Notes under the pieces: generated by a model | What the model was told of the DNA's origin: nothing | Database searches by the model: none | The model's input: only the letters and a program-made list of their open reading frames with translations | Translations under genes and position numbers: made by a program | Assembly: GCF_900156025.1 (NCBI RefSeq) | Contig: NZ_FTMO01000007.1 | Location: forward strand, 1-64,000 | DNA length: 64,000 nt | Direction of reading: 5' to 3' | Source: Allobosea sp. TND4EK4 | Lineage (GTDB): Bacteria; Pseudomonadota; Alphaproteobacteria; Rhizobiales; Beijerinckiaceae | Shown here: positions 33,447-49,789 of the stretch, piece after piece | Layout: each line of letters starts with the position of its first letter | Position numbering within the stretch: position 1 is the first letter of the stretch

Positions 33447-33471
33447 AACCGCGACCTTGCAGAGGGGTTCC
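33447..33471 (-). promoter_or_regulatory. EcfG-type promoter candidate for glgE operon
   Basis: On the minus strand GGAAC (33471-33467) and GTT (33449-33447) are 17 bp apart, the same geometry as the nepR promoter in this window. Consensus is GGAAC, 16-17 bp, CGTT; the C is a G here. The start of transcription would fall near 33440, about 20 bases before the glgE ATG. Confidence 0.55.
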
Positions 33472-39010: not shown

Positions 39011-39121
39011 CACGCAAGCCTATCCCCCGAGCCGCCACCCCGAAGGCGACGGCATCAACGACGCTTATTCCTATAGCATGGTCCCGCTGCCTCCACGAGC
39101 GCCCGGCAATGGCTGCCCAAG

Positions 39122-39147
39122 GGAACCTTTGGCGGTTTCGCGGCGTT
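39122..39147 (+). promoter_or_regulatory. EcfG-type promoter
   Basis: GGAAC (39122-39126), 17 bp, CGTT (39144-39147): a full match to the alphaproteobacterial general-stress consensus. It lies about 50 bases before the ATG at 39198, with a ribosome binding site between. Confidence 0.7.
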
Positions 39148-39197
39148 TTTCCGTCATGAAAGCCGGCCAGGAGGCCGGCGAGCCTTGGGAGACTGAC

Positions 39198-39479
39198 ATG
39201 CTGAACCACAGCTTCGCTCCGGCCAAGCGCGCCCTGATCTTCTTCGGATGCATGGGAGCGGTCGTGGGTGGCCTGACCCTCGGCTCCGCCTTCCAGATTC
39301 CGACCGACGAGAGCTCGACGACCGTCGCGCTGGCACGAGGCGCCGACGCGGTGCCGGCCGGAGCGCAGTTCGCCGCCGTCAATCGCTCCGACCAGACCGA
39401 GAGCGCCGCCAAGCGCGCGATTCCCAGCCCGTCCCAGCAGGCGATGGCCGAGCAGAGCCGCACGACAATTTTGCGCTGA
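39198..39479 (+). CDS. Small exported or membrane-anchored protein, unknown function
   Basis: 93-residue protein of no family I recognise. A short basic N-terminus (NHSFAPAKR) is followed by one hydrophobic segment, ALIFFGCMGAVVGGLTLGSA, and then a Ser/Ala/Gln-rich hydrophilic tail, so it is either secreted or held in the inner membrane with a periplasmic tail. ATG 39198 is chosen from GGGAGA ten bases upstream; an in-frame ATG at 39156 sits too near the predicted transcription start. It follows a full EcfG-type promoter and is followed by a terminator, so it is probably a monocistronic stress gene. Confidence 0.7.
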   Translation: MLNHSFAPAKRALIFFGCMGAVVGGLTLGSAFQIPTDESSTTVALARGADAVPAGAQFAAVNRSDQTESAAKRAIPSPSQQAMAEQSRTTILR

Positions 39480-39485
39480 CGGAGC

Positions 39486-39510
39486 GGAACACGAGCGTCC
39501 TTGCGGCGTT
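39486..39510 (+). promoter_or_regulatory. EcfG-type promoter
   Basis: GGAAC (39486-39490), 16 bp, CGTT (39507-39510): a full consensus match placed seven bases after the preceding stop codon. Transcription would start near 39517. A terminator hairpin lies between it and the transglutaminase-like gene. Confidence 0.65.
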
Positions 39511-39516
39511 ACCCTC

Positions 39517-39568
39517 CCGCGCATCCTCGCGCTCCACTTCAAAGCCGCCTCACGGCGGCTTGTTTTTT
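39517..39568 (+). ncRNA. Candidate stress-induced small RNA or attenuated leader
   Basis: The stretch from the predicted start of the EcfG-type promoter to the T-tract of the intrinsic terminator is about 50 bases with no open reading frame. It could be a short regulatory RNA of the general stress response, or a leader whose terminator limits expression of the gene at 39601. Promoter and hairpin are visible in the sequence; the RNA itself is an inference. Confidence 0.35.
39542..39568 (+). terminator. Intrinsic terminator
   Basis: An 8-bp stem (39542-39549 with 39554-39561), TCAC loop, then G and six T. It can end both the small exported-protein transcript and any RNA from the promoter at 39486. 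Confidence 0.88.
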
Positions 39569-39600
39569 GACCATTCGGACGGCTTCATCGCGGAACGACC

Positions 39601-40512
39601 ATGTATCTGCGCATCCGCCACGCGACGACCTATCGCTACACGCAGCCCGTCTCCTTCGGCCCGCACCGGCTGATGCTGCGGCCGCGGGACAGCTTCGACC
39701 TGCGCGTCGTCGATACCGCGCTCAGCATTTCGCCGGCCGCCGAACTGCGCTGGCTGCACGATGCCTATGGCAACCCCATCGCGGTCGCGGAGTTCTCCGA
39801 ATCTTCGGATACGCTCGACATCATCAGCGAACTGACGCTCGAGCGCTTCGGCCCGGCGCTGCCCCACACGCGGATGGCTCCCGAAGCCGTCCTGACCGGC
39901 TTGTCCTACAGCGACAGCGAGCAAGCCGTGCTCCAGCCTTATCTCGACCCCGCCGCGGCCGATGCCGATCGCGTGCTGGAGCGCTGGCTTTCGGACTTTC
40001 GGCAGCGCGCCGACCAGGGCTCGGGCCATCTGCTGCGCGACCTCGCGCATGAGATCAATGTCGGACTGGGCTATTCCGTGCGCTACGACGAGGGCACGCA
40101 GCATCCGGCCGATACCCTGCTTTCAGGTCGGGGATCCTGCCGGGACTATGCCTGGCTTTTCATCGAGATGGCCCGCCGCCTCGGCTTCGCAGCCCGGTTC
40201 GTGACCGGCTATATCCAGGACCTCACGCCTGATGCGGCCGGGCTGGTTTCGCCGATCGGCCTGACCCATGCCTGGGCGGACGTGTTCATCCCGGGTGACG
40301 GGTGGATCGAATTCGACCCGACGAACGATCTCGTCGCCGACCGGCAGCTGCTGCGTGTCGCCGTGGCGCGTGTTCCCGACGACGCTTCACCGGTCGCCGG
40401 CAGCTTCACCGGGCCGGCGGGATCCTTCATCGGCCTCAGCGTCGGGGTTTCGATCGAGCCCATCCCCGGCCCGGCCGAAGAGCCGCTGTTGCCGGCCTCG
40501 TCGGCCGCCTGA
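39601..40512 (+). CDS. Transglutaminase-like protease-fold protein
   Basis: 303-residue member of the bacterial transglutaminase-like family. The N-terminal beta region (MYLRIRHATTYRYTQPV) is the usual leading domain. The papain-like triad is present: Cys180 in GRGSCRDYAW, His223 in LTHAWADVF and Asp239 in FDPTND. No signal peptide is seen, so it is cytoplasmic as far as sequence shows. Family members act as amidases or proteases; substrate unknown. It is preceded by an EcfG-type promoter and a terminator, and converges with the sensor kinase gene. Confidence 0.85.
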   Translation: MYLRIRHATTYRYTQPVSFGPHRLMLRPRDSFDLRVVDTALSISPAAELRWLHDAYGNPIAVAEFSESSDTLDIISELTLERFGPALPHTRMAPEAVLTGLSYSDSEQAVLQPYLDPAAADADRVLERWLSDFRQRADQGSGHLLRDLAHEINVGLGYSVRYDEGTQHPADTLLSGRGSCRDYAWLFIEMARRLGFAARFVTGYIQDLTPDAAGLVSPIGLTHAWADVFIPGDGWIEFDPTNDLVADRQLLRVAVARVPDDASPVAGSFTGPAGSFIGLSVGVSIEPIPGPAEEPLLPASSAA

Positions 40513-40524
40513 GGCTCCGCCACC

Positions 40525-42180
40525 TCAGCCTTCGTGCTTCACGCGCCAACGCCCCAGAACGCGCCCCTCCGCCTCGGCGCTTTGAACCGCCTGGATCTGC
40601 GAGAGCAGCCCCGCGAACAGGCGCGGCGGCTCGCGGAAGGGAATGTCCCGGTCGGCCTCCAGCGCGATCTCGATCGTGTCGGCATCGATGTCGTGCACCA
40701 GCACGGTCACGGAAACGCCGGGCGTGCTGCGCAGCACGCGCGAGGCTACGTCGGCGACGACGAAGCCGAGCGGAATGATGCGATCCACCGACAGGACAGC
40801 CTCGGTCTCGATGCGGCTGACGACCGACTGGTCGCGGCTGCGGATCAGGTTCGAGATCATCGTGACGACGTCCTCGAGGAACAGGTCGACGCGGACCGGC
40901 TGCATCTCGCCATCCGCGAGGGTGAAACGATAGGCGGCCGACAGGACGTGGACCCTGCACTCGGCATCGGCCAGAGCCAGGCGTGCTTCGCTCTGATAGT
41001 CGCGCTTGCTCAGGCCGATATAGCTCTGCACGACCTGCAGGCTGTTCTTCACCCGGTGATGCAGCTCCCGCACCAGGAAGCGGTTGTCGTCGAGCGCGGT
41101 CTGGAGCCGGCGCTGACGCACCTCCTGCTCGTCGACCATGGTGTTGAAGGCTTCCGCGACGCTGCGCATGTCGCTTGGCATGTCGTCGGCAACCAAGGCG
41201 CGGGAGGTCGCACCGGCGGGCCGGGTCCGCGCCGCCGCCTCGATGCTCCGCAACCAGCGCAGGCAATGCTTCTCCAGCGCGCGCAGATAGACCGCACCCA
41301 ACAGGCCGAGCGTGATCAGCGGCGCCAGCAACAGCACGGCAAACTGAATCCGCGCGGCCCGCTCGCGCGCATCGTCGAAGCCAGCGATGACATAAAAGTC
41401 CGGATCGGCGACGGCACGCGCGACATAGGCCCGCGTCTCCCCGCTCCGACTACGGCCCTCCCAGCGCCCGCCGCGAGCAGGGATGTTGTTATTATCCTCC
41501 GGAAGCCAGCTTGTGTCGTCGCCGGCCCCCCGGCTGGCCACGACGCCGCTGGCGCGGGACACCAGCGCCACCTCCATGCCCTGGCTTCCGTTGCCCAAGT
41601 CGAAGACGTTATCAAGAACGCCGGGGTCCACCAGGAGCAGGCCGTCCCTCAGATTGCCCGGAGCCGGATCGGGATTTGAAGCGTGAACCACGAGGAAACG
41701 ACTGTTTCCCAGCGATATCTGGCCGTAACGGGCGTCTGCGAGCTCCTGGCCTCCCCATGCAGGGACCCGCGGCAGGCTGCCCATGCGGTCGGCGGCCTTT
41801 GCCAAGTCGCCCGCCTGGATCGCAGGATCACGCGACGCCGCGCAACTGCGCCCATCGGCCATGCGCAGCAGGATAGCCGAGAAGCCTTTCACTTCCACCA
41901 AAGTCGCCTGCCCCGCCTGCCCGCAGGCCTCGGCAGACAGTTTGCTCGCGCTCATCGCCGTACCGAAGGACAGAAGCGAGCGCAGCGCCCCGCGGTACCA
42001 GACCCGGGTCCGGACGGCGAAATCGTCAGCCGCCTGTAACTGGGAGGCTTCGATGGCGTTGGTGATGGAGCGATAGGCCGTCGCAACAGCCAGGGCCGTT
42101 ACGCAGGCGATCGGCAGGGCGATCGCGAACAGGAGCGCCAGAAGGCGTGCCCTAACGGTGCTGAAACGGGCAAGGCGCAT
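40525..42180 (-). CDS. HisKA_2 sensor protein of the stress locus, degenerate ATPase domain
   Basis: Membrane sensor of 551 residues directly downstream of ecfG (six-base gap). A transmembrane helix near 12-34, a periplasmic region to about 278, and a second helix near 280-302 precede a HAMP-like stretch. The phosphoacceptor helix has ELHHRVKNSLQVVQSYIGL (His near 374), the HisKA_2/HWE type. The catalytic domain is odd: where these kinases have an asparagine-rich N-box (VNELVTNAL) this has VADVASRVLRS, and no DxGxG box can be found before the C-terminus. It may be unable to bind ATP and act as a phosphatase or scaffold for PhyR, as PhyP of Sphingomonas is reported to do. Confidence 0.85.
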   Translation of the reverse strand: MRLARFSTVRARLLALLFAIALPIACVTALAVATAYRSITNAIEASQLQAADDFAVRTRVWYRGALRSLLSFGTAMSASKLSAEACGQAGQATLVEVKGFSAILLRMADGRSCAASRDPAIQAGDLAKAADRMGSLPRVPAWGGQELADARYGQISLGNSRFLVVHASNPDPAPGNLRDGLLLVDPGVLDNVFDLGNGSQGMEVALVSRASGVVASRGAGDDTSWLPEDNNNIPARGGRWEGRSRSGETRAYVARAVADPDFYVIAGFDDARERAARIQFAVLLLAPLITLGLLGAVYLRALEKHCLRWLRSIEAAARTRPAGATSRALVADDMPSDMRSVAEAFNTMVDEQEVRQRRLQTALDDNRFLVRELHHRVKNSLQVVQSYIGLSKRDYQSEARLALADAECRVHVLSAAYRFTLADGEMQPVRVDLFLEDVVTMISNLIRSRDQSVVSRIETEAVLSVDRIIPLGFVVADVASRVLRSTPGVSVTVLVHDIDADTIEIALEADRDIPFREPPRLFAGLLSQIQAVQSAEAEGRVLGRWRVKHEG

Positions 42181-42186
42181 CGGGGT

Positions 42187-42771
42187 TCAGACTGTTTCGG
42201 AACCGATCCTCTGCATGGCTGCCGCGCTCGTGCGGTCCGGACCCAGGTCATCGACGCTGCCGATGGACAAAAGCTCGGCCAGCTTGGTGCGGGCTCGGTT
42301 CACGCGGCTCTTGATCGTCCCGATGGCCACGCCGCAGATCTCGGCGGCTTCCTCATAGGACAGCCCTGTCGCCCCGACCATGATCAGCACTTCGCGCTGC
42401 TCCTCCGGGAGCTTGGCAAGGGCCTTGCGGAAATCGGCAAGGTCGAGATGGCTTTCCTGGTTGCCATGCGTCGCCATGCGCTCGGCATAGGTGCCTTCGC
42501 TGTCCTGAACCTCGCGGCCGCGCTTGCGGTACAGCGAGTAATAGGTATTGCGCAGGATGGTGAAGAGCCAGGCGCGCAGGCTCGTCCCCGGCTCGAACTT
42601 CTCCGAATTGCCCCAGGCCTTGAGAAGGGTGTCCTGCACCAGATCGTCGGCGAGTTGCATCGAGCCCGAGAGCGACGCCGCGAAGGCGCGCAGGTTCGGG
42701 ATTTCGCGGATCAGCCCGTCCTTGAATTCGGTTGCCTTGAACTCGGCCGCCTTGAGGTCAGTTGCGCTCAT
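42187..42771 (-). CDS. ecfG: General stress response sigma factor EcfG
   Basis: ECF sigma factor of 194 residues. Region 2 is LADDLVQDTLLKAWGNSEKF with SLRAWLFTILRNTYYSLYRK; region 4 is LPEEQREVLIMVGATGLSYEEAAEICGVAIGTIKSRVNRAR (written here in parts of one run: the helix-turn-helix follows the GLSYEEAAE helix). It directs RNA polymerase to GGAAC-CGTT promoters and is held inactive by NepR until phosphorylated PhyR removes NepR. Its start overlaps nepR by 14 bases, showing translational coupling. Confidence 0.95.
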   Translation of the reverse strand: MSATDLKAAEFKATEFKDGLIREIPNLRAFAASLSGSMQLADDLVQDTLLKAWGNSEKFEPGTSLRAWLFTILRNTYYSLYRKRGREVQDSEGTYAERMATHGNQESHLDLADFRKALAKLPEEQREVLIMVGATGLSYEEAAEICGVAIGTIKSRVNRARTKLAELLSIGSVDDLGPDRTSAAAMQRIGSETV

Positions 42772-42982
42772 CGGACGAGGCTCCGGCTGCGCGCTGTTCG
42801 GTCGCCTCGAGCTGCGCCAGCAGGACGAGGAACTTGTCTGGCACCGGGGCGCTGACGATGTCGTCGTAATGCGCTTTCAGCGAGCGGCCGATCGATTCCT
42901 GCACCTTCGGGTCTAGCACCATGTCGAGATCGTCATTGTCGCTCGCCCCGGGGTCGGACATCGCTGCATCCATATTCGTCAT
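42758..42982 (-). CDS. nepR: Anti-sigma factor NepR
   Basis: 74-residue anti-sigma factor that binds EcfG and, alternatively, phosphorylated PhyR. The conserved core IGRSLKAHYDDIVSAPVPDKF is characteristic (helix 1, then the PxPDKF turn and helix 2 LVLLAQLEATEQ). ATG 42982 sits five bases after GAGGG; a GTG directly precedes it. It is divergent from phyR and has an EcfG-type promoter, giving autoregulation of the nepR-ecfG pair. Confidence 0.93.
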   Translation of the reverse strand: MTNMDAAMSDPGASDNDDLDMVLDPKVQESIGRSLKAHYDDIVSAPVPDKFLVLLAQLEATEQRAAGASSDERN

Positions 42983-43087
42983 CACAGCCCTCGCGCCGCC
43001 GGGCCTGCTTTTCCAGCGGGTCCCGGATATTCAAACCAATCGGTTCGCCGCGGCCGGATGGCGATGGCAACACCAATGCGCCCTAAT

Positions 43088-43112
43088 AACAGGGGTTCTC
43101 GCGAAAAGTTCC
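43088..43112 (-). promoter_or_regulatory. EcfG-type promoter of nepR-ecfG
   Basis: On the minus strand GGAAC (43112-43108), 17 bp, GTT (43090-43088). Placement in front of nepR-ecfG agrees with the known autoregulation of EcfG in Alphaproteobacteria. The base before GTT is T rather than C. Confidence 0.7.
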
Positions 43113-43135
43113 GGCTTTCCGCAAAAATAAAAACC

Positions 43136-43164
43136 TTGTCAGGACCGCCGCCTAAGCCATTATT
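43136..43164 (+). promoter_or_regulatory. Possible sigma-70 promoter of phyR
   Basis: TTGTCA (43136-43141), 17 bp, ATTATT (43159-43164), ending 24 bases before the phyR ATG. I find no GGAAC-type site on this strand in the spacer, so basal phyR expression may come from here. Confidence 0.4.
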
Positions 43165-43188
43165 GCACAAGGATAATAAGGACGCATC

Positions 43189-43983
43189 ATGTCTATCGCC
43201 AAGGAAATCGCGCCTCATCTGCCCTATCTGCGCCGCTTCGCGCGCGCCCTCAGCGGCACGCAAGCCAGCGGCGACGCACATGTCGTTGCGATGCTGGAGG
43301 CGCTGGTCGCTGATCCTTCGGGCTTCCCGCGGGACGTCGACCCGCGCATCGGCCTCTACCGCACCTTCCTCAAGCTCTGGTCGTCGACCGGGGTCGACAT
43401 GAGCGAGCCGGTGATCGAACTCGGCCGGGCACCCGCCGAGCGCAACCTGGACGCGCTCACGCCGCGGCCACGCCAGGCCTTCCTGCTGCGGACGGTCGAG
43501 GGCTTCTCGATCGACGAGGTCGGGACGATCATGAACGTGCCGGCCGACGAGGCCGCCACGCTGATCCAGACGGCCGGGCAGGAGATTGCCGAACAGGTCG
43601 CGACCGACGTTCTCATCATCGAGGACGAGCCGATCATCGCGCTCGACATCGAGACGATGGTCGAGGAGCTCGGCCATACCGTCACCGGCGTGGCGCGCAC
43701 CCAGCGCGAGGCGATCGCCCTCGTGGCCAAGAAGCGTCCCGGCCTGGTTCTGGCGGATATCCAGCTCGCGGACGGCAGCTCCGGTCTCGATGCCGTGAAC
43801 GAGATCCTGTCCTCGATCGACGTGCCGGTGATCTTCATCACAGCCTATCCCGAAAGGCTTCTGACCGGCGACCGGCCCGAGCCGGCCTTCCTCATCACCA
43901 AGCCGTTCCAGCCCGAGGCGGTGAAGGCGGCGATCAGCCAGGCCCTGTTCTTCGATCGGCGCGCGGGCCGCAAGGCCGCCTGA
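43189..43983 (+). CDS. phyR: General stress response regulator PhyR
   Basis: Anti-anti-sigma factor of 264 residues. Residues 1 to about 130 mimic an ECF sigma factor (LPYLRRFARALSG, then ALTPRPRQAFLLRTVEGFS). Residues 140-260 form a receiver domain with Glu145/Asp146, phosphoacceptor Asp190, Thr218 and Lys238. Phosphorylation frees the sigma-like part to capture NepR and release EcfG. It is divergent from nepR-ecfG-sensor, the standard alphaproteobacterial arrangement, and ends at a strong terminator. Confidence 0.96.
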   Translation: MSIAKEIAPHLPYLRRFARALSGTQASGDAHVVAMLEALVADPSGFPRDVDPRIGLYRTFLKLWSSTGVDMSEPVIELGRAPAERNLDALTPRPRQAFLLRTVEGFSIDEVGTIMNVPADEAATLIQTAGQEIAEQVATDVLIIEDEPIIALDIETMVEELGHTVTGVARTQREAIALVAKKRPGLVLADIQLADGSSGLDAVNEILSSIDVPVIFITAYPERLLTGDRPEPAFLITKPFQPEAVKAAISQALFFDRRAGRKAA

Positions 43984-44009
43984 GGCTTCTATCAAATGTC
44001 GCGTTCAGA

Positions 44010-44036
44010 CCCCGCGGCGAGCCGCGGGGTTTTTTC
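44010..44036 (+). terminator. Intrinsic terminator of phyR
   Basis: An 8-bp all-GC stem (44010-44017 with 44022-44029), CGAG loop and seven T, beginning 26 bases after the phyR stop. Confidence 0.92.
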
Positions 44037-44046
44037 GTTCAAACCC

Positions 44047-44071
44047 GGAACAGGATCCCGAGACCGACGTT
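44047..44071 (+). promoter_or_regulatory. EcfG-type promoter
   Basis: GGAAC (44047-44051), 16 bp, CGTT (44068-44071): a full consensus match, just after the phyR terminator and about 39 bases before the small ORF at 44110. Confidence 0.72.
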
Positions 44072-44109
44072 CGCGAGTCGGCAGGGAGACAACCGGGAGG
44101 GCATGGACG

Positions 44110-44274
44110 ATGGCGATGACGTGCATGGCGGCGGTGATCGGGGCGACATCGGTCGCTACGGCTCTGTTTACGGGGATCATTCCACCCGATGCGATGGGGG
44201 CGGATATTCTGTCGCTCGCGCTGGCGGGGCTGACGGGAATCGCGGTGGCCAGCGCCGCCGCCCTCGACAGCTGA
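44110..44274 (+). CDS. Small membrane protein, unknown function (54 aa)
   Basis: A 54-residue, very hydrophobic product with two likely transmembrane segments, CMAAVIGATSVATALFTGII and ILSLALAGLTGIAVASAAA, joined by PPDAMGAD. A strong GGGAGG lies nine bases before ATG 44110, whereas the ATG at 44103 in another frame is only two bases from it, which decides the start. It follows a full EcfG-type promoter and precedes the extensin-like gene, so both may be one stress transcript. No homologous family recognised. Confidence 0.6.
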   Translation: MAMTCMAAVIGATSVATALFTGIIPPDAMGADILSLALAGLTGIAVASAAALDS

Positions 44275-44327
44275 AGCCTTCGCGACAAGGTCGATCCCGC
44301 AGCCTCGCAGCGGCCACACTGGCGGCC

Positions 44328-45077
44328 ATGGTCGGTCTTGCGGCGATCACGTCGCCGGCCGCCTCTCCGGTGATGCCTCCGCCTCGGCCCGCCGAGTTGG
44401 GCGCGCCGGAGAAGCCGCGCCACGAGCGGATCGACCCATCGCAGCCCGAGCCGCAACGGTCCCAGCCCGCGCAGGAGCTGGGCGCTGCCCCGCGCGAGCC
44501 CGGCGCAGCCGGCTGCATCGACGCCCTGATGGCGGTTCAAGGCAACAGGATCAGGCCTGCTCCACCAGAGCAACTGCCGCGGGATCAGGCCTGCCGGATC
44601 AAGGAAGCCGTCGTGGTCGAAGCCCTGGCGGTTCGCTCCAGTTCCGGAACGGTGGCGCTCGTGCCGCCCCCGACGCTCAGCTGCGCCATGGCAAAGGCGG
44701 TCTCAGGCTGGCTCGACATCGCGGTACAGCCCTTGGCACGAGGCCAGTTCGAAAAGGATCTCCTGGCACTGCAGGTCGGCGGAGGGCAGGAATGCCGCCG
44801 TCGCAACCGCGCATCGGCCGGGCCGTTCAGCGAGCATGCCACCGGAGAAGCACTCGACATCTTCGCGTTCCGCCTGGAGCCGGGTGCAGGCTCATCCGAG
44901 ATTCGGGTGGCGAAGCCTGACGGTGTTCCGCAAGAGCGTTTCCTCGCCGCGACCCGCCAATCCGCCTGCGGTGCGTTCATGACCGCACTGGGACCGGGTT
45001 CGGACGCCGCCCATGCCGATCATCTGCATGTCGATATCCAGGAGCGGCGCTCGCCCGCCTCCCGGTTCTGCCAATGA
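44328..45077 (+). CDS. Extensin-like C-terminal domain protein
   Basis: Secreted protein with a Pro-rich linker after the N-terminus and a C-terminal extensin-like domain of about 170 residues, recognised from GPFSEHATGEALDIFAF, an AC..F pair and LGPGSDAAHADHLHVDI; the His/Asp pattern resembles LAS-type peptidases acting on peptidoglycan. The only in-frame ATG is 44328, which leaves a short signal (MVGLAAITSPAASP). A basic-hydrophobic run fitting a full signal peptide starts at CTG 44271, overlapping the stop of the preceding small ORF, so coupled non-ATG initiation is possible. Probably transcribed with the small gene. Confidence 0.78.
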   Translation: MVGLAAITSPAASPVMPPPRPAELGAPEKPRHERIDPSQPEPQRSQPAQELGAAPREPGAAGCIDALMAVQGNRIRPAPPEQLPRDQACRIKEAVVVEALAVRSSSGTVALVPPPTLSCAMAKAVSGWLDIAVQPLARGQFEKDLLALQVGGGQECRRRNRASAGPFSEHATGEALDIFAFRLEPGAGSSEIRVAKPDGVPQERFLAATRQSACGAFMTALGPGSDAAHADHLHVDIQERRSPASRFCQ

Positions 45078-45087
45078 GACCAATTCT

Positions 45088-45330
45088 TCAGGCCGTCGGG
45101 GCCAAAGCGATCATGGCGGGCATCTGCGCCGGGTCGCAGGGCCTGTCCTTTGCAAGCATCGGCTTCGTCCGGCGAGCAGCCATCACGGCCAACGCACCAG
45201 CGCGCTCCAACCCGTGATCGATGAGTTCTTCCAGCTCCCAGAACGGCGGGACAGCCAGATGATCGAAGGAGCCATTCGCGCTGACAAGAATCTGCGCCTG
45301 TGGACGATTCACGGACATCGCCATTCCCAT
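45088..45330 (-). CDS. Hypothetical small protein, uncertain
   Basis: An open frame of about 80 residues (NRPQAQILVSANGSFDHLAV, then a helix-like WELEELIDHGLERAGALAVM) with no family I recognise. Third codon positions are about three quarters G or C, better than random but below the neighbours. The main support is a GGAAC-N17-GTT promoter on the same strand at 45347-45371, placed as in front of glgE. ATGs at 45330, 45324 and 45318 are all possible; no good ribosome binding site. The opposite strand also stays open here, so this may not be a gene. Confidence 0.4.
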   Translation of the reverse strand: MGMAMSVNRPQAQILVSANGSFDHLAVPPFWELEELIDHGLERAGALAVMAARRTKPMLAKDRPCDPAQMPAMIALAPTA

Positions 45331-45346
45331 GCCAAGATGCAGTGAG

Positions 45347-45371
45347 AACTCAACCTCCCGTCCGTGGTTCC
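45347..45371 (-). promoter_or_regulatory. EcfG-type promoter candidate, minus strand
   Basis: On the minus strand GGAAC (45371-45367), 17 bp, GTT (45349-45347). It stands back to back with a full match on the plus strand, the two -35 elements only 8 bases apart. Confidence 0.45.
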
Positions 45372-45379
45372 AATGAGCC

Positions 45380-45404
45380 GGAACTGTGGGCATCTTGGGG
45401 CGTT
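45380..45404 (+). promoter_or_regulatory. EcfG-type promoter
   Basis: GGAAC (45380-45384), 16 bp, CGTT (45401-45404): a full consensus match. AGGAG at 45421 and ATG at 45433 follow at fitting distances. Confidence 0.75.
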
Positions 45405-45432
45405 GCGTCCCGTCTGCGCCAGGAGCACTGCG

Positions 45433-45933
45433 ATGAGCATTCGGCATTCGAGCTTCAGCCTCGCGGGGGCCGCGCTCGGCTGCCTGTTGGCGTCGGGGAC
45501 CGGAGCTCTGGCCCAGTCCGGCCCGCCGGGCGGAAGGCTGTCCTGCACGATCGGTCCCAATGCGGCCGCGGTGGTCAAGTCGCAGAAGCCCATGCAATGC
45601 CGCTTTCACCCGCGGCGGGGGCCGAACCAGATCTATACCGCCGTCGTCAAGCAGTTCAGCGTCGATTTGAGCGCCATGCGCGGTACCCGCATGAGCTGGC
45701 GCGTCTATGGCCCTTATGCCCGCGCGCCGCTCGGCGCGCTCAGCGGCTCGTACAGTGCCGGGCCGGGCCTTGCGGCTGCCGATGGATCGTCTGGCCCGCC
45801 CATCCTTGTCGGGGGGCGGGGCAAGTCCGTGTCCCTGCGCCCGCTGGCGGTGCAGACGCTGCGGGGCATCAACATTGCCATCGGCGTGACCGGACTTGAT
45901 CTCACGCTCAACACGCCGCGCCGCCGACGCTGA
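45433..45933 (+). CDS. DUF992 domain exported protein
   Basis: 166-residue secreted protein. The signal peptide (SFSLAGAALGCLLASGTGALAQ) is followed by a DUF992 domain: LSCTIGPNAAAVV, MQCRFHPRRGPNQIYTAVV, FSVDLSAMRGTRMSWRVYG, GALSGSYSAGPGLAA, then PILVGGRGKSVSLRPLAVQ. The domain is common in Hyphomicrobiales envelopes and has no known function. ATG 45433 follows AGGAG by seven bases. A full EcfG-type promoter lies upstream, making it a probable member of the general stress regulon. Confidence 0.82.
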   Translation: MSIRHSSFSLAGAALGCLLASGTGALAQSGPPGGRLSCTIGPNAAAVVKSQKPMQCRFHPRRGPNQIYTAVVKQFSVDLSAMRGTRMSWRVYGPYARAPLGALSGSYSAGPGLAAADGSSGPPILVGGRGKSVSLRPLAVQTLRGINIAIGVTGLDLTLNTPRRRR

Positions 45934-46016
45934 ACCGCGCTTACGGATTGATAACTCCTATCGTCGCAAAATTCCGGTCAAATCCAAAGAAACCGCGCCT
46001 GACGCAAAGTCAGCCC

Positions 46017-46041
46017 GGAACATCGCCTCATCTCTCACGTT
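46017..46041 (+). promoter_or_regulatory. EcfG-type promoter
   Basis: GGAAC (46017-46021), 16 bp, CGTT (46038-46041): a full consensus match about 40 bases before the response-regulator ATG at 46081. Confidence 0.75.
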
Positions 46042-46080: not shown

Positions 46081-46458
46081 ATGGCTGACATCCGCGTCCT
46101 TATCGTCGAAGACGATCCGTTCATTGCCATGGACATCGAGTCGGCCGTGGCCGAACAGCTCGGCGGCGAGGCAGAACTGATCGTCGTCGAATCCGTTGCA
46201 GCCGCCCGTCGCGCCGCGGCGGACAAGTTGTCTTGTGCGTTGTTGGACATCGATGTCGTGGGCGGCAAGACCTTCGAAGTCGCCAGCACGCTGCTGCAGA
46301 TCGGCATCCCCTTCGCGTTCGTTTCCGGCTCCGCGCCGCAGGAGGTGCCGACGCCTCTGCGGGCAGCGCATTTCCTGCGCAAGCCATTCTCGACGCATGA
46401 GGTCGCCACATTCGTCGTCAATGCGATCGGCAAGCCCCCGGTCGAGGCCGCGGTCTGA
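46081..46458 (+). CDS. Single-domain response regulator
   Basis: Stand-alone receiver of 125 residues without output domain. Asp11/Asp12, phosphoacceptor Asp56 in LLDIDVVGG, Ser82 and Lys101 are all in place. The stretch PFAFVSG at 77-83 resembles the PFxFATGY motif of FAT GUY response regulators, a class tied to the general stress phosphorelay in Sphingomonas (SdrG). With a full EcfG-type promoter and the phyR locus 2 kb away, a role in phosphate flow to or from PhyR is plausible, but this is inference. Confidence 0.88.
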   Translation: MADIRVLIVEDDPFIAMDIESAVAEQLGGEAELIVVESVAAARRAAADKLSCALLDIDVVGGKTFEVASTLLQIGIPFAFVSGSAPQEVPTPLRAAHFLRKPFSTHEVATFVVNAIGKPPVEAAV

Positions 46459-46525: not shown

Positions 46526-47374
46526 TCACCTCCCTGAGACGAAATCCTCGAAGGCTGCCTTGTAATCCCGATGCCAGCGCGACAGCGGGGGTCGGTTGGC
46601 GATGATGTCACCCACCGCCCAGGCCATCCGCTTTTCGTCAGTCGCGCGCGACGTCTCTCCATCCGGACACAGGATGTAGAAATCGCCGGCGTGCAGTCCT
46701 TCGAGCATGAAATCGACGGTCTCTTCCGGCGTCCAGGCACCGCCCGGCTTTTCGACCCGCCCGCGCGCGGTCAAGGGCGTGAAGACGAAGCCGGGGATCA
46801 GCAGATGGGCGCTGACCCCGCAGCCCGGCATGTTGCGAAGCTCATGCTGCAAGGCCTCCGTGAAAACCTTCACGCCCGCCTTGGCGACATTGTAGGCCGG
46901 ATTTCCGGGTGGGGTGGTGATGCCCTGCTTGGAGCCGGTGTTGACGATCAAGGCCGGCTCGCCATGCGCGGCCATGCCGGGTCCGAAGACCTGGGTCCCG
47001 TTGACGACGCCCCCGAGATTGACGGCAAGCGTCTGCTGCCACACCTCATGGGGACCGAAGATGCCGCTTTCGGGCTGGATGCCGGCGTTGTTCATCAGCA
47101 CATGCACGCGGCCGAACCGGCCAGTCACCGCGTCCTGCAAGGCGACGACCTCTTCCCGGCGCGAGACGTCGACCGTCATCGCCAGCACGTTTTCCGCGCC
47201 GACGAGCGTCGCCAGCACCTGTCCAGCCGCCTTCAGCGCTTCTCCATCGTTATCGGCGATCGCGACCCGCATGCCGAGCCCGGCAAAGGCGCGCGCGGCA
47301 GCGAAGCCGATCCCCGAGGCGCCACCGGTGACGATGGCGACATTGGCGGCGATGAGGGCAGGATGAAGTGTCAT
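46526..47374 (-). CDS. SDR family oxidoreductase
   Basis: Classical short-chain dehydrogenase of 282 residues. The cofactor motif is TGGASGIG (residues 16-23), with NNAG near 95, catalytic Ser in VNTGSKQG and the YNVAK pair. An Asp after the second strand (AIADNDGE) suggests NAD rather than NADP. The C-terminal 40 residues extend past the core. The substrate is unknown. It is divergent from dsbD with a 177-base spacer. Confidence 0.88.
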   Translation of the reverse strand: MTLHPALIAANVAIVTGGASGIGFAAARAFAGLGMRVAIADNDGEALKAAGQVLATLVGAENVLAMTVDVSRREEVVALQDAVTGRFGRVHVLMNNAGIQPESGIFGPHEVWQQTLAVNLGGVVNGTQVFGPGMAAHGEPALIVNTGSKQGITTPPGNPAYNVAKAGVKVFTEALQHELRNMPGCGVSAHLLIPGFVFTPLTARGRVEKPGGAWTPEETVDFMLEGLHAGDFYILCPDGETSRATDEKRMAWAVGDIIANRPPLSRWHRDYKAAFEDFVSGR

Positions 47375-47551
47375 GAACGGCCTCGTGTTCGGCGGGAGAG
47401 GCGATTCTCCGCGGGCAGCGGAGATAAGGGGCGCCGCGCGGCGACATCATGGCGCGCTGCCGGCCGCCCGGCGGCGTGTGATAGGACGCCGCTCCCGGCG
47501 TTCACCGCCTTGTCATTGGCGGCCCGGAAGCGCTTGAGGCATGGAAAGCCG

Positions 47552-49789
47552 ATGCAGACGATCATTCGAGCCCTGACCGCGGCATGGCATGCCGGCGCCC
47601 AGCCGCAGCGCCCTGCCCTTCGCCGGCTCTTGCCGGCGGCGGCGCTGGCCGCGCTGTCCCTCTCCTGGCCCGTCCCGACAGCCACGGCCGCCGAAACCGC
47701 GCCTGTGACCTCTCCACGCGTCACCACGACACTGATCTCCAGCCGCGATGCCGTGGTGCCGGGAGAGCGGTTCCGCGTGGCGCTGGTCCAGAAGCTCGCG
47801 CCGCACTGGCACACCTATTGGCGCAACCCCGGCGATTCGGGCGAGCCGACGCAGATCCAATGGACACTCCCCGCCGGAGCGGGCGCAGGCGAGATCGCCT
47901 GGCCCGCGCCCCGCGCCATCCCGGTCGACCCGCTCGTCAATTTCGGCTTCGAAGGTACCGTCGTCCTGCCGGTCGAGATCAGCGTGCCGCAGGACGCCAA
48001 GCCCGGCGACAGCCTTCCGCTGACCGCCAAGGCGACCTGGCTCGTCTGCGAGAAGGTCTGCGTTCCCGAGGAAGGATCGTTCGCGCTGACGCTGCCGGTC
48101 GCAGCAGTGAGCCAGCCGGACGCCGCCGCCGAGCAAGCGATCGATGCCGCGCTCGCAGCGCTGCCAAAGCCCGCCGGTTTTCGCGGAACGCTGAAAGCCG
48201 AAGGCGACCGGCTCTCGCTGGCGTTGCCCGGCCTGCCCGCCGATTCGCGGGATCTGCGCTTCTTTCCGTTCTCCGACACGTTGATCGACCATGCCGGCGA
48301 GCAGACCTTCGCTCCCGGTCCTCCGCCTGCTCTCCTCCTGACACGCTCGGGCGCCTTCAAGCTCGACGGCGGCGAGATCTCGGGCGTGCTGACCTTTCAG
48401 CAGAACGGGGAGAAACGCGCCCTGACGCTGAGCGCGGACGCCGACCCGGCGCTGGCGACACAGGCTGCGGCGGGGGCATTGCCGGGGGCGGGCCCATCCA
48501 GCCCGGCCGTCGTCCGGATTCCGATGCCGATCGAAGGCTCCGACCTGACGCTGCTCGCCGCGCTGGCCTTCGCCTTCGCGGGGGGGCTGATTCTCAACCT
48601 GATGCCCTGCGTCCTGCCGGTGCTGTTCATCAAGGCGCTCGGCTTCGCGCAAACGGCGCATCGCAGCCGCGCCGAGACGCGCGAGCAGGGCCTGCTCTTC
48701 CTCGGCGGCGTGCTGCTGACCTTCATGGTGCTGGCCGGCGCCGTCATCGGCCTCGGTGCGCTGGGGGCCAGCGTCGGCTGGGGCTTCCAGCTTCAGTCGC
48801 CGCCGCTCGTCATCGGGCTGGCCGTGGTGATGGTGCTGATCGGCTTCAACCTGATCGGGGGCTTCGAATTCGGGAGCTCCGTCACGGGGCTCGGCGACGG
48901 GCTCGCCAGAAGCGGCGGGCGGCTCGGCGCCTTCATGACCGGCGTCCTGGCCGTCGTGGTGGCGACACCCTGCACGGCTCCGTTCATGGGCGCGGCCATG
49001 GGCTATGCGGTGACCCAGGCCCCGGCCGTGGCTCTCTGGGTGTTCATCGCGCTGGCGCTGGGCTTCGCGCTGCCGGTGGTGGCGCTGTCCTTCGCGCCGG
49101 GCCTGCTCAGGCTCCTGCCCAAGCCCGGCCGCTGGATGCTGGTGATGAAGCAGGCCTTCGCCTTCCCGATGTTCGCAACCGCAATCTGGCTGATCTGGGT
49201 GGCCGCGGTGCAGACCGGTCCGGACGGCATGCTCGCCGCGCTGGTGGCGGTGCTGACCGCGGGCTTCGTGGTCTGGCTCGTCGGCGTGACGCGCGGCTCG
49301 CGGCCGCGCCGCGTCTTCGGGGCGGCGCTCGCCGCGCTGGTCGTGCTCGGGGCCGGCTGGTTCACGGTCCGGAACGCGATTCCGAATGCGACAGGCGAGG
49401 CGCGCGCCAACGATGTCCAGGCCTGGACGCCCGAGCGGGTGGCCGCGCTTCAGGCGCAGGGCAAGCCGGTCTTCGTCAACTTCACCGCCGCCTGGTGCAT
49501 CACCTGCCTCGCCAATGAGCGCGTCGCGCTGTCGCGGCAGGAGGTCAAGGACAGCTTCGCCCGGCTCGGCGTGAGCTATCTCAAGGGCGACTGGACCAAC
49601 CGGGACTCGCGCATCGCCCAGGCTCTTGCCGAGCAGGGCCGGGCGGGCGTGCCGCTCTACCTGTTCTATCCGGGGCGCAGGGATGCGCAGCCCGAGATCC
49701 TGCCGCAACTCCTGACGCCCGACATGGTGATCGCGGCGGCGGAACGCGCCGCCGGCAAGGAGGCCAGGACTGCCGCGACCCTGCCTTAG
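47552..49789 (+). CDS. dsbD: Protein-disulfide reductase DsbD family
   Basis: Membrane protein of 745 residues that carries electrons from cytoplasmic thioredoxin to the periplasm. Signal peptide, then a periplasmic domain with WLVCEKVCVPEEG, a core of about eight helices with NLMPCVLPVLFIKALGF and VVVATPCTAPFMG, and a C-terminal thioredoxin-fold domain with AAWCITCLANE. All three cysteine pairs are present. The N-terminal domain, with HWHTYWRNPGDSGEPT, is the ScsB-like type found in Alphaproteobacteria rather than the E. coli type. The redoxin gene follows 23 bases later. Confidence 0.9.
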   Translation: MQTIIRALTAAWHAGAQPQRPALRRLLPAAALAALSLSWPVPTATAAETAPVTSPRVTTTLISSRDAVVPGERFRVALVQKLAPHWHTYWRNPGDSGEPTQIQWTLPAGAGAGEIAWPAPRAIPVDPLVNFGFEGTVVLPVEISVPQDAKPGDSLPLTAKATWLVCEKVCVPEEGSFALTLPVAAVSQPDAAAEQAIDAALAALPKPAGFRGTLKAEGDRLSLALPGLPADSRDLRFFPFSDTLIDHAGEQTFAPGPPPALLLTRSGAFKLDGGEISGVLTFQQNGEKRALTLSADADPALATQAAAGALPGAGPSSPAVVRIPMPIEGSDLTLLAALAFAFAGGLILNLMPCVLPVLFIKALGFAQTAHRSRAETREQGLLFLGGVLLTFMVLAGAVIGLGALGASVGWGFQLQSPPLVIGLAVVMVLIGFNLIGGFEFGSSVTGLGDGLARSGGRLGAFMTGVLAVVVATPCTAPFMGAAMGYAVTQAPAVALWVFIALALGFALPVVALSFAPGLLRLLPKPGRWMLVMKQAFAFPMFATAIWLIWVAAVQTGPDGMLAALVAVLTAGFVVWLVGVTRGSRPRRVFGAALAALVVLGAGWFTVRNAIPNATGEARANDVQAWTPERVAALQAQGKPVFVNFTAAWCITCLANERVALSRQEVKDSFARLGVSYLKGDWTNRDSRIAQALAEQGRAGVPLYLFYPGRRDAQPEILPQLLTPDMVIAAAERAAGKEARTAATLP

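Follow-up and report, generated by a model that had tools for sequence, protein, structure and literature searches.

A general stress response locus in Bosea with probably clustered promoters for the sigma factor that it encodes, a candidate small RNA, and phyR probably outside the loop

Do the promoter-like sites crowded around the phyR, nepR and ecfG genes of a Bosea genome form a compact stress regulon centred on the sigma factor encoded there, as a first-pass annotation of the DNA had proposed, or could they have come together by chance? We addressed this question in a window of 64,000 nucleotides (the whole stretch analysed; positions 1 to 64,000 of contig NZ_FTMO01000007.1 of Allobosea sp. 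TND4EK4), taken from a genome of 4.72 Mb in 60 contigs; the nearest named relatives of its locus are Bosea genomes. The core genes are those of a general stress response (GSR) locus, namely phyR, whose product joins a sigma-like domain to a receiver, nepR, a sigma factor gene with regions 2 and 4 of the extracytoplasmic function (ECF) type, and a histidine kinase gene of the HWE/HisKA_2 class. In all likelihood, promoters for the locally encoded sigma factor are clustered at this GSR locus of a Bosea species and would serve seven units including a small RNA, while phyR would lie outside the loop.

The window holds five full sites (GGAAC-N16/17-CGTT) on the plus strand, at 39122 (N17) and at 39486, 44047, 45380 and 46017 (N16), together with two minus-strand variants of the form GGAAC-N17-GTT at 43088-43112 and 45347-45371, all as annotated. 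No other full match occurs in the 64 kb (mean 0.51 and maximum 3 in 100 dinucleotide shuffles), and GGAAC-N17-GTT occurs eight times (shuffle mean 2.13, maximum 7), with one extra match outside the island at 33447-33471. All five full sites were found between genes and pointing to a gene or small-RNA unit, which bears out the earlier description of them as intergenic and correctly oriented. The estimate of about one full match by chance per 64 kb was likewise sound, since the reversed pattern occurs 79 times in the 4.72-Mb genome, or 1.07 per 64 kb. The 6.9-kb island would thus be expected to hold about 0.12 to 0.14 full matches; the Poisson probability of five in 6.92 kb is 1.6e-7 with the rate taken from those 79 matches and 3.7e-7 with the rate from the 94 full matches of the genome, or 1.1e-4 and 2.5e-4 after multiplication by the number of such windows in the genome.

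The conservation of the sites was then assessed at ecfG loci taken from 60 genomes of the genus, of which 57 were syntenic (L141-L197) and made up 58 loci with the window; L198-L200 were left out, and two of the syntenic loci (L168 and L188) lack the sep93 block at the locus. These loci are kin and their counts are not independent; their spacers have diverged, whereas the hexamers have not. Six slots were kept across the genus (Table 1), with the short pattern (GGAAC-N17/18-GTT) present in between 46 of 57 loci (DUF992) and 56 of 56 (sep93), and the full site in 25 (nepR) to 55 (response regulator) of them. The slot after phyR spans 600 bases and so gives a more generous test than the others, and the sole miss in the response regulator slot (L161) comes from a contig that stops short, where the gene search wrongly matched PhyR. 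In the same slots (447 slot instances), the reversed full pattern was found twice, the reversed short pattern four times, and a control with spacers of 14-15 or 18-19 nucleotides once, while the islands of the 58 loci contain 352 full matches versus 23 reversed ones. The distance from site end to sep93 start is 48-58 nt. The seventh site, at 39486, is less conserved (short pattern in 22 of 56 loci, 21 of these full). Given matches to GGAAC-N16/17-CGTT that stand at promoter distance and are conserved, we read these sites as EcfG promoters, with the EcfG dependence of every one of them read from sequence alone.

The clustering itself proved to be a layout of a known kind. For eight named Bosea loci, the 96 kb of sequence within 6 kb of ecfG hold 53 full sites versus 9 in the 68 kb farther away, and the 61 of 71 non-Bosea loci that exceed 20 kb have 290 near (732 kb) versus 23 far (520 kb), with 17 and 3, respectively, for the reversed pattern; by these near and far counts, the non-Bosea loci examined generally have EcfG sites clustered at the locus. 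Published work describes comparable systems: in Sphingomonas melonis, the genes that adjoin phyR/ecfG by gene number are EcfG-dependent and carry such motifs, one with a CATT -10 element (PMC6599016), and the EcfG1 motif of R. etli is GGAAC-N16-CGTT (PMC3892343). The Bosea locus resembles other PhyR-NepR-EcfG loci in core genes, kinase type, promoter motif and site clustering, but differs in a phyR without an EcfG site and in the orphan genes sep93, mem54 and orfU. The notion of a compact stress regulon is therefore supported by the recurrence of six sites before the same genes in 57 further loci with diverged spacers, by the near-zero control patterns in the slots and by the PhyR, NepR, EcfG and kinase identity of the core genes; it needs amending in that the clustering is not special to this genome, and the regulon as such is one we infer from sequence. 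An equal density of matches inside coding sequence elsewhere would have spoken against the regulon; the controls that bear on this are the reversed pattern and the near/far comparison around ecfG, and both argue against such an even spread.

The core is uniform across the genus. EcfG is 87-98% identical to its counterparts in the 57 syntenic loci (the match in genome G065 contains a TGA), and the HWE/HisKA_2 kinase gene stands at the locus in all 58; this kinase is probably the sensor kinase of the locus, with a weak match to the PhyK model (97 bits, cut-off 750). No EcfG-type site points toward phyR in any of the 58 Bosea loci, compared with 23 of 34 divergent loci of other genera. Since the closest non-Bosea loci (L040-L042) likewise have no EcfG site before phyR, its absence may predate Bosea. 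In 44 of 58 loci, the 85 nt that precede phyR contain a TTGTC block, adjoined by an A/T-rich stretch in the loci inspected; the block was not found in L181 and L197. The two elements suggest that phyR has another promoter. In R. etli, phyR expression is severely reduced without ecfG1 (PMC3892343).

The site at 39486 leads to the candidate small RNA. It follows the sep93 stop codon by 6 nt and is itself followed, after about 31 nt, by the stem of an intrinsic terminator (39542-39567), which the first-pass annotation had not mentioned and which separates the site from the transglutaminase gene. With a 5' end placed 6-7 nt past the -10 element, the predicted RNA of the window folds at -21.9 kcal/mol (z -4.3). 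Site, hairpin and terminator occur together in 27 of the 45 loci that keep sep93 and the transglutaminase gene, with -10 elements of the types CGTT (21), GGTT (1) and CATT (5), and are lacking in 18. Seventeen of the 27 RNA sequences were aligned; L153, L167, L176 and L178 were left out for a hairpin shifted in the first alignment, L170, L172 and L173 as near-identical to L167, and L171, L177 and L179 in addition, L177 without firm reason. In the 17 rows, the pairing of stem 1 is kept through two-sided changes at three consecutive pairs, its covariation score is 0.255 versus 0.185 in shuffled alignments (reached in 0 of 500 shuffles), and CCTCG, which falls in the loop and its closing pair, is invariant; in all 27 rows, the score is 0.221 versus 0.156 (0 of 500), and no row breaks any of the four inner pairs of stem 1. 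The model R1 scores the window RNA at 68.4 bits, the window sequence being one of the 17 that built it, and matches at 49 bits or more in 30 of 67 genus genomes; of the weaker matches in the genus, the four that were compared with Rfam (L231, L232, L234 and L236) proved to be BjrC1505. In two genomes the sep93-RNA-transglutaminase block stands away from the locus, about 200 kb from ecfG with the full site kept (G014) and on another contig than ecfG with a GGTT variant kept (G033).

Several observations weigh against these readings. The count on all 27 rows used sequences aligned to the model, so that the alignment was fitted to the structure, and the aligned RNAs are relatives. In stem 1, the two outermost pairs are broken in 10 and 7 of the 27 rows; the number of two-sided pair changes is unexceptional on 17 rows (181 of 500 shuffles reach it; 13 of 500 on 27 rows), as are the further pair types (374 and 153 of 500 shuffles). 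L171 keeps part of the CCUC loop and L179 has CCUG, which weakens the invariance of the loop. A GTT-type site is missing in 34 of 56 loci: 11 of these are without transglutaminase gene and RNA, five have the RNA with a CATT -10 element, and among the other 18, an RNA match persists with no recognisable site in L160 and L182-L184 (49.5, 40, 30.5 and 38.9 bits), while in the rest no first hairpin was seen. A sep93 transcript would also read through the RNA, so the RNA could be a processed 3' end. For the sites as a whole, the own genome has 94 full matches versus 79 reversed ones, from which it follows that most full matches elsewhere are chance.

That last figure is what favours regarding the five matches as a functionless chance cluster, but this explanation is contradicted by the six slots kept throughout the Bosea loci with controls near zero, and we consider it exceedingly improbable. 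For the site at 39486, two other explanations have to be weighed. It could be the promoter of the transglutaminase gene, with the hairpins forming an attenuator in the leader, and the gene does lie 90 nt downstream in the same direction and is missing jointly with the RNA in 11 loci; all 22 loci with a GTT-type site, however, have the terminator with its T run (which the search pattern required), and what is conserved and co-varies is a short hairpin whose C-rich loop is exposed, which makes a leader attenuator unlikely. A little less unlikely, yet still improbable, is that the short RNA represents the processed 3' end of the sep93 mRNA and that the site is weak or accessory. The common strand, the 6-nt distance from the sep93 stop codon, the terminator in common and the four loci in which the RNA match persists although no site for it could be recognised fit such processing, whereas the full site kept in 21 loci with diverged spacers and the CATT variant in five point to a promoter in its own right. 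We favour a small RNA with its own EcfG-type promoter.

Two known RNAs offer themselves for comparison with this candidate. ReC64 of R. etli is an EcfG1-dependent RNA, as established by a 5' rapid amplification of cDNA ends (5' RACE) start and fusions, and lies downstream of the locus kinase (PMC3892343), while GsrN acts via a C-rich loop and its relatives are usually near the GSR locus (PMC5869019). The Bosea RNA shares with both an EcfG-type promoter, a GSR position on the kinase side, a C-rich hairpin near the 5' end and a terminator of its own; it differs in length from ReC64 (about 50 nt versus 88 nt) and in its loop, UCCUC or UCCCUC, from the six C of Caulobacter GsrN, which was compared by description only. 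Two further marks of this type of RNA are Hfq-influenced processing and activation of katG. At the 71 non-Bosea loci, 21 of 356 sites are followed within 130 nt by a terminator-like structure, and by our own reading nine of these are C-rich non-coding RNAs on the kinase side that resemble ReC64 (L055, L064, L068, L078, L080, L089, L094, L100 and L101), with several of the other rows coding; R1 matched none of the six of these nine that were tested. Searched against 33 of the 71 named non-Bosea loci at E ≤0.01, R1 found only L040 (25.4 bits), a relative outside Bosea in which GGAAC-N16-TGTT precedes a similar hairpin, and L059, which scores 23.3 bits and has no EcfG site. An EcfG-type site, GSR proximity and an exposed C-rich 5' loop were thus found for the Bosea RNA, and homology outside the genus was not; on this analysis, we propose a GsrN/ReC64-like function and do not claim homology. 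As a more tentative suggestion, the Bosea lineage might have replaced or independently evolved its GSR small RNA as a minimal EcfG-driven anti-Shine-Dalgarno hairpin of about 50 nt and kept phyR outside EcfG autoregulation, so that amplification would run via EcfG/NepR and an RNA arm and not via PhyR.

Other candidate relatives were rejected. None of the 17 best non-Bosea loci in the wider family has an EcfG site, and by our own reading most are BjrC1505-like or terminator only; L245 has a C-rich hairpin resembling that of L040 and no site. A 29-bit match elsewhere in the own genome, considered as a second copy, is BjrC1505 (RF02356), and assignment to RF00519 (suhB/MmgR) fails at 26.2 bits in the window against a gathering cut-off of 41, with L217 (21.0 bits) the only one listed among 13 other Bosea copies. 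Both families are alike to the candidate in a C-rich stretch and a GCCGCC-type terminator; RF00519 scores below its cut-off, and BjrC1505 occupies a different locus of this genome, with a copy at C30:229430-229488 (L231; RF02356, 66.9 bits) that contains a GCCUCCCUG stretch.

Taken together with the known PhyR-NepR-EcfG system, these results suggest the following scheme. Stress would lead to phosphorylation of PhyR, probably via the adjacent HWE/HisKA_2 kinase, and phosphorylated PhyR would take NepR off EcfG. RNA polymerase with EcfG would then transcribe from the seven nearby sites the units nepR-ecfG, sep93, mem54/extensin-like, orfU, DUF992, the single-domain response regulator and a small RNA of about 50 nt, the last of which would start from the site at 39486 and stop at the terminator common with sep93. 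The UCCUC/UCCCUC loop would most likely base-pair with target mRNAs at G-rich or Shine-Dalgarno stretches, in the manner of GsrN with its C-rich loop, and phyR would stay outside the loop on another promoter. One literature search on EcfG in Bosea turned up no paper that, judged by its abstract, deals with this system.

The single-domain response regulator keeps D56 and K101 in 58 of 58 rows (the L161 row is the PhyR receiver). It resembles the FATGUY regulators SdrG/MrrA in its single receiver, GSR context and conserved Asp and Lys, but where these have the motif PFXFATG(G/Y) (PMC5964349), the window regulator reads PFAFVSGS, with F80 in 58 and V81, S82 and G83 in 57 of 58 rows. The protein may represent a relative whose switch has changed, or else a receiver that acts as a competitor. 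Elsewhere in the own genome (C10:76093-76440; L262), a receiver with an exact FATGUY motif, PFIFATGY, lies inside a larger open frame. A histidine kinase gene follows the regulator within 1.5 kb in 45 of 58 loci, in 44 of which a full EcfG-type site stands beyond the regulator on the strand of the kinase; the kinase is not beside the regulator in 11 loci including the window, and two more loci have too little sequence. The own genome carries the same kinase with two small proteins, a 377-aa protein and two full sites at C48:158467-162035 (L267), about 112 kb from the regulator of the window. Since 45 of 58 loci have the kinase operon beside the island and 11 do not, we dropped the idea that the island once extended further; the change may have gone in either direction.

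The first-pass annotation had also spoken of several orphan genes, and sep93, mem54 and orfU match that description well. For sep93 no Pfam or NCBIfam family was found, for mem54 no Pfam family and for orfU no family, and none of the three was found in the 71 non-Bosea loci; among 249 genomes of the order, orfU has a clear match in the own genome only, with three others at about 21 bits. All three are conserved in Bosea, and divergence of sep93 is highest at third codon positions (0.459 versus 0.354 and 0.294), with values for the three codon positions of 0.262, 0.212 and 0.523 in mem54 and 0.308, 0.258 and 0.543 in orfU. Conservation together with codon-position divergence suggests, at the level of sequence, that these are real genes. 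The start of orfU may be a later in-frame Met, because the first Met is only 16 nt past the site; the extensin-like gene likely starts near 44328, and the DUF992 protein is probably exported.

At the left edge of the island, the stretch upstream of a Crp/FNR-like gene (about 39013-39100 in the window, minus strand) has a full EcfG-type site in 17 of 52 loci and none in the window. The gap from this gene to sep93 exceeds 1.5 kb in 34 of 52 loci; in L155, the only one in which it was inspected, the gap holds an open frame of 623 aa that has an EcfG-type site to itself (L155:992-2972). To the right, a 1072-aa open frame (46571-49789, plus strand) matches DsbD only from residue 388, and the opposite strand carries a short-chain dehydrogenase gene that overlaps the first third of the frame; the DsbD start therefore lies further in.

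Table 1. Features of the island, with positions in the window and occurrence at the Bosea loci (full, GGAAC-N16/17-CGTT; other counts at sites, short pattern)
Feature	Position	Strand	Family match, occurrence or remark
EcfG-type site (N17) before sep93	39122..39147	+	56/56 loci, full in 43
sep93, 93 aa, one N-terminal hydrophobic segment (by eye)	39198..39479	+	56/58 loci
EcfG-type site (N16) of candidate small RNA	39486..39510	+	22/56 loci, full in 21
Candidate EcfG-driven small RNA, ~52 nt	39517..39568	+	UCCUC-loop hairpin, ACUUC linker, terminator
Intrinsic terminator	39542..39567	+	Read as common to sep93 and small RNA
Transglutaminase-like protein	39601..40512	+	PF08379, PF01841; 45/58 loci
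HWE/HisKA_2 histidine kinase	40525..42180	-	PF07568, PF07536
ecfG, ECF sigma factor	42187..42771	-	Family models
nepR, anti-sigma factor (listed frame)	42758..42985	-	PF18557
EcfG-type site (TGTT) before nepR-ecfG	43088..43112	-	57/58 loci, full in 25
phyR, anti-anti-sigma response regulator	43189..43983	+	PF22029, PF22233, PF00072
Terminator after phyR	44007..44036	+	
EcfG-type site before mem54/extensin-like gene	44047..44071	+	57/58 loci within 600 bases past phyR, full in 54
Extensin-like C-terminal domain protein (listed frame)	44103..45077	+	PF06904; 51/58 loci
mem54, 54-aa hydrophobic protein	44110..44274	+	32/58 loci
orfU, small protein with PPFWELE motif (frame from first Met)	45088..45330	-	52/58 loci
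EcfG-type site (AGTT) before orfU	45347..45371	-	56/57 loci, full in 54; back to back with 45380 site
EcfG-type site before DUF992 gene	45380..45404	+	46/57 loci, full in 41
DUF992 protein	45433..45933	+	PF06186; 57/58 loci
EcfG-type site before single-domain response regulator	46017..46041	+	57/58 loci, full in 55
Single-domain response regulator	46081..46458	+	PF00072 below cut-off, 19.3 vs 30.2 bits

Collectively, conservation defines a core set of EcfG-sited genes for Bosea. The candidate small-RNA family adds a type without an over-cut-off match in Rfam 15, the conserved PPFWELE microprotein family is a new addition as well, and the lack of an EcfG site before phyR predicts a feedback structure unlike that of R. 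etli; what merits experiment at this locus is the small RNA, the PPFWELE protein and the absence of a site before phyR.

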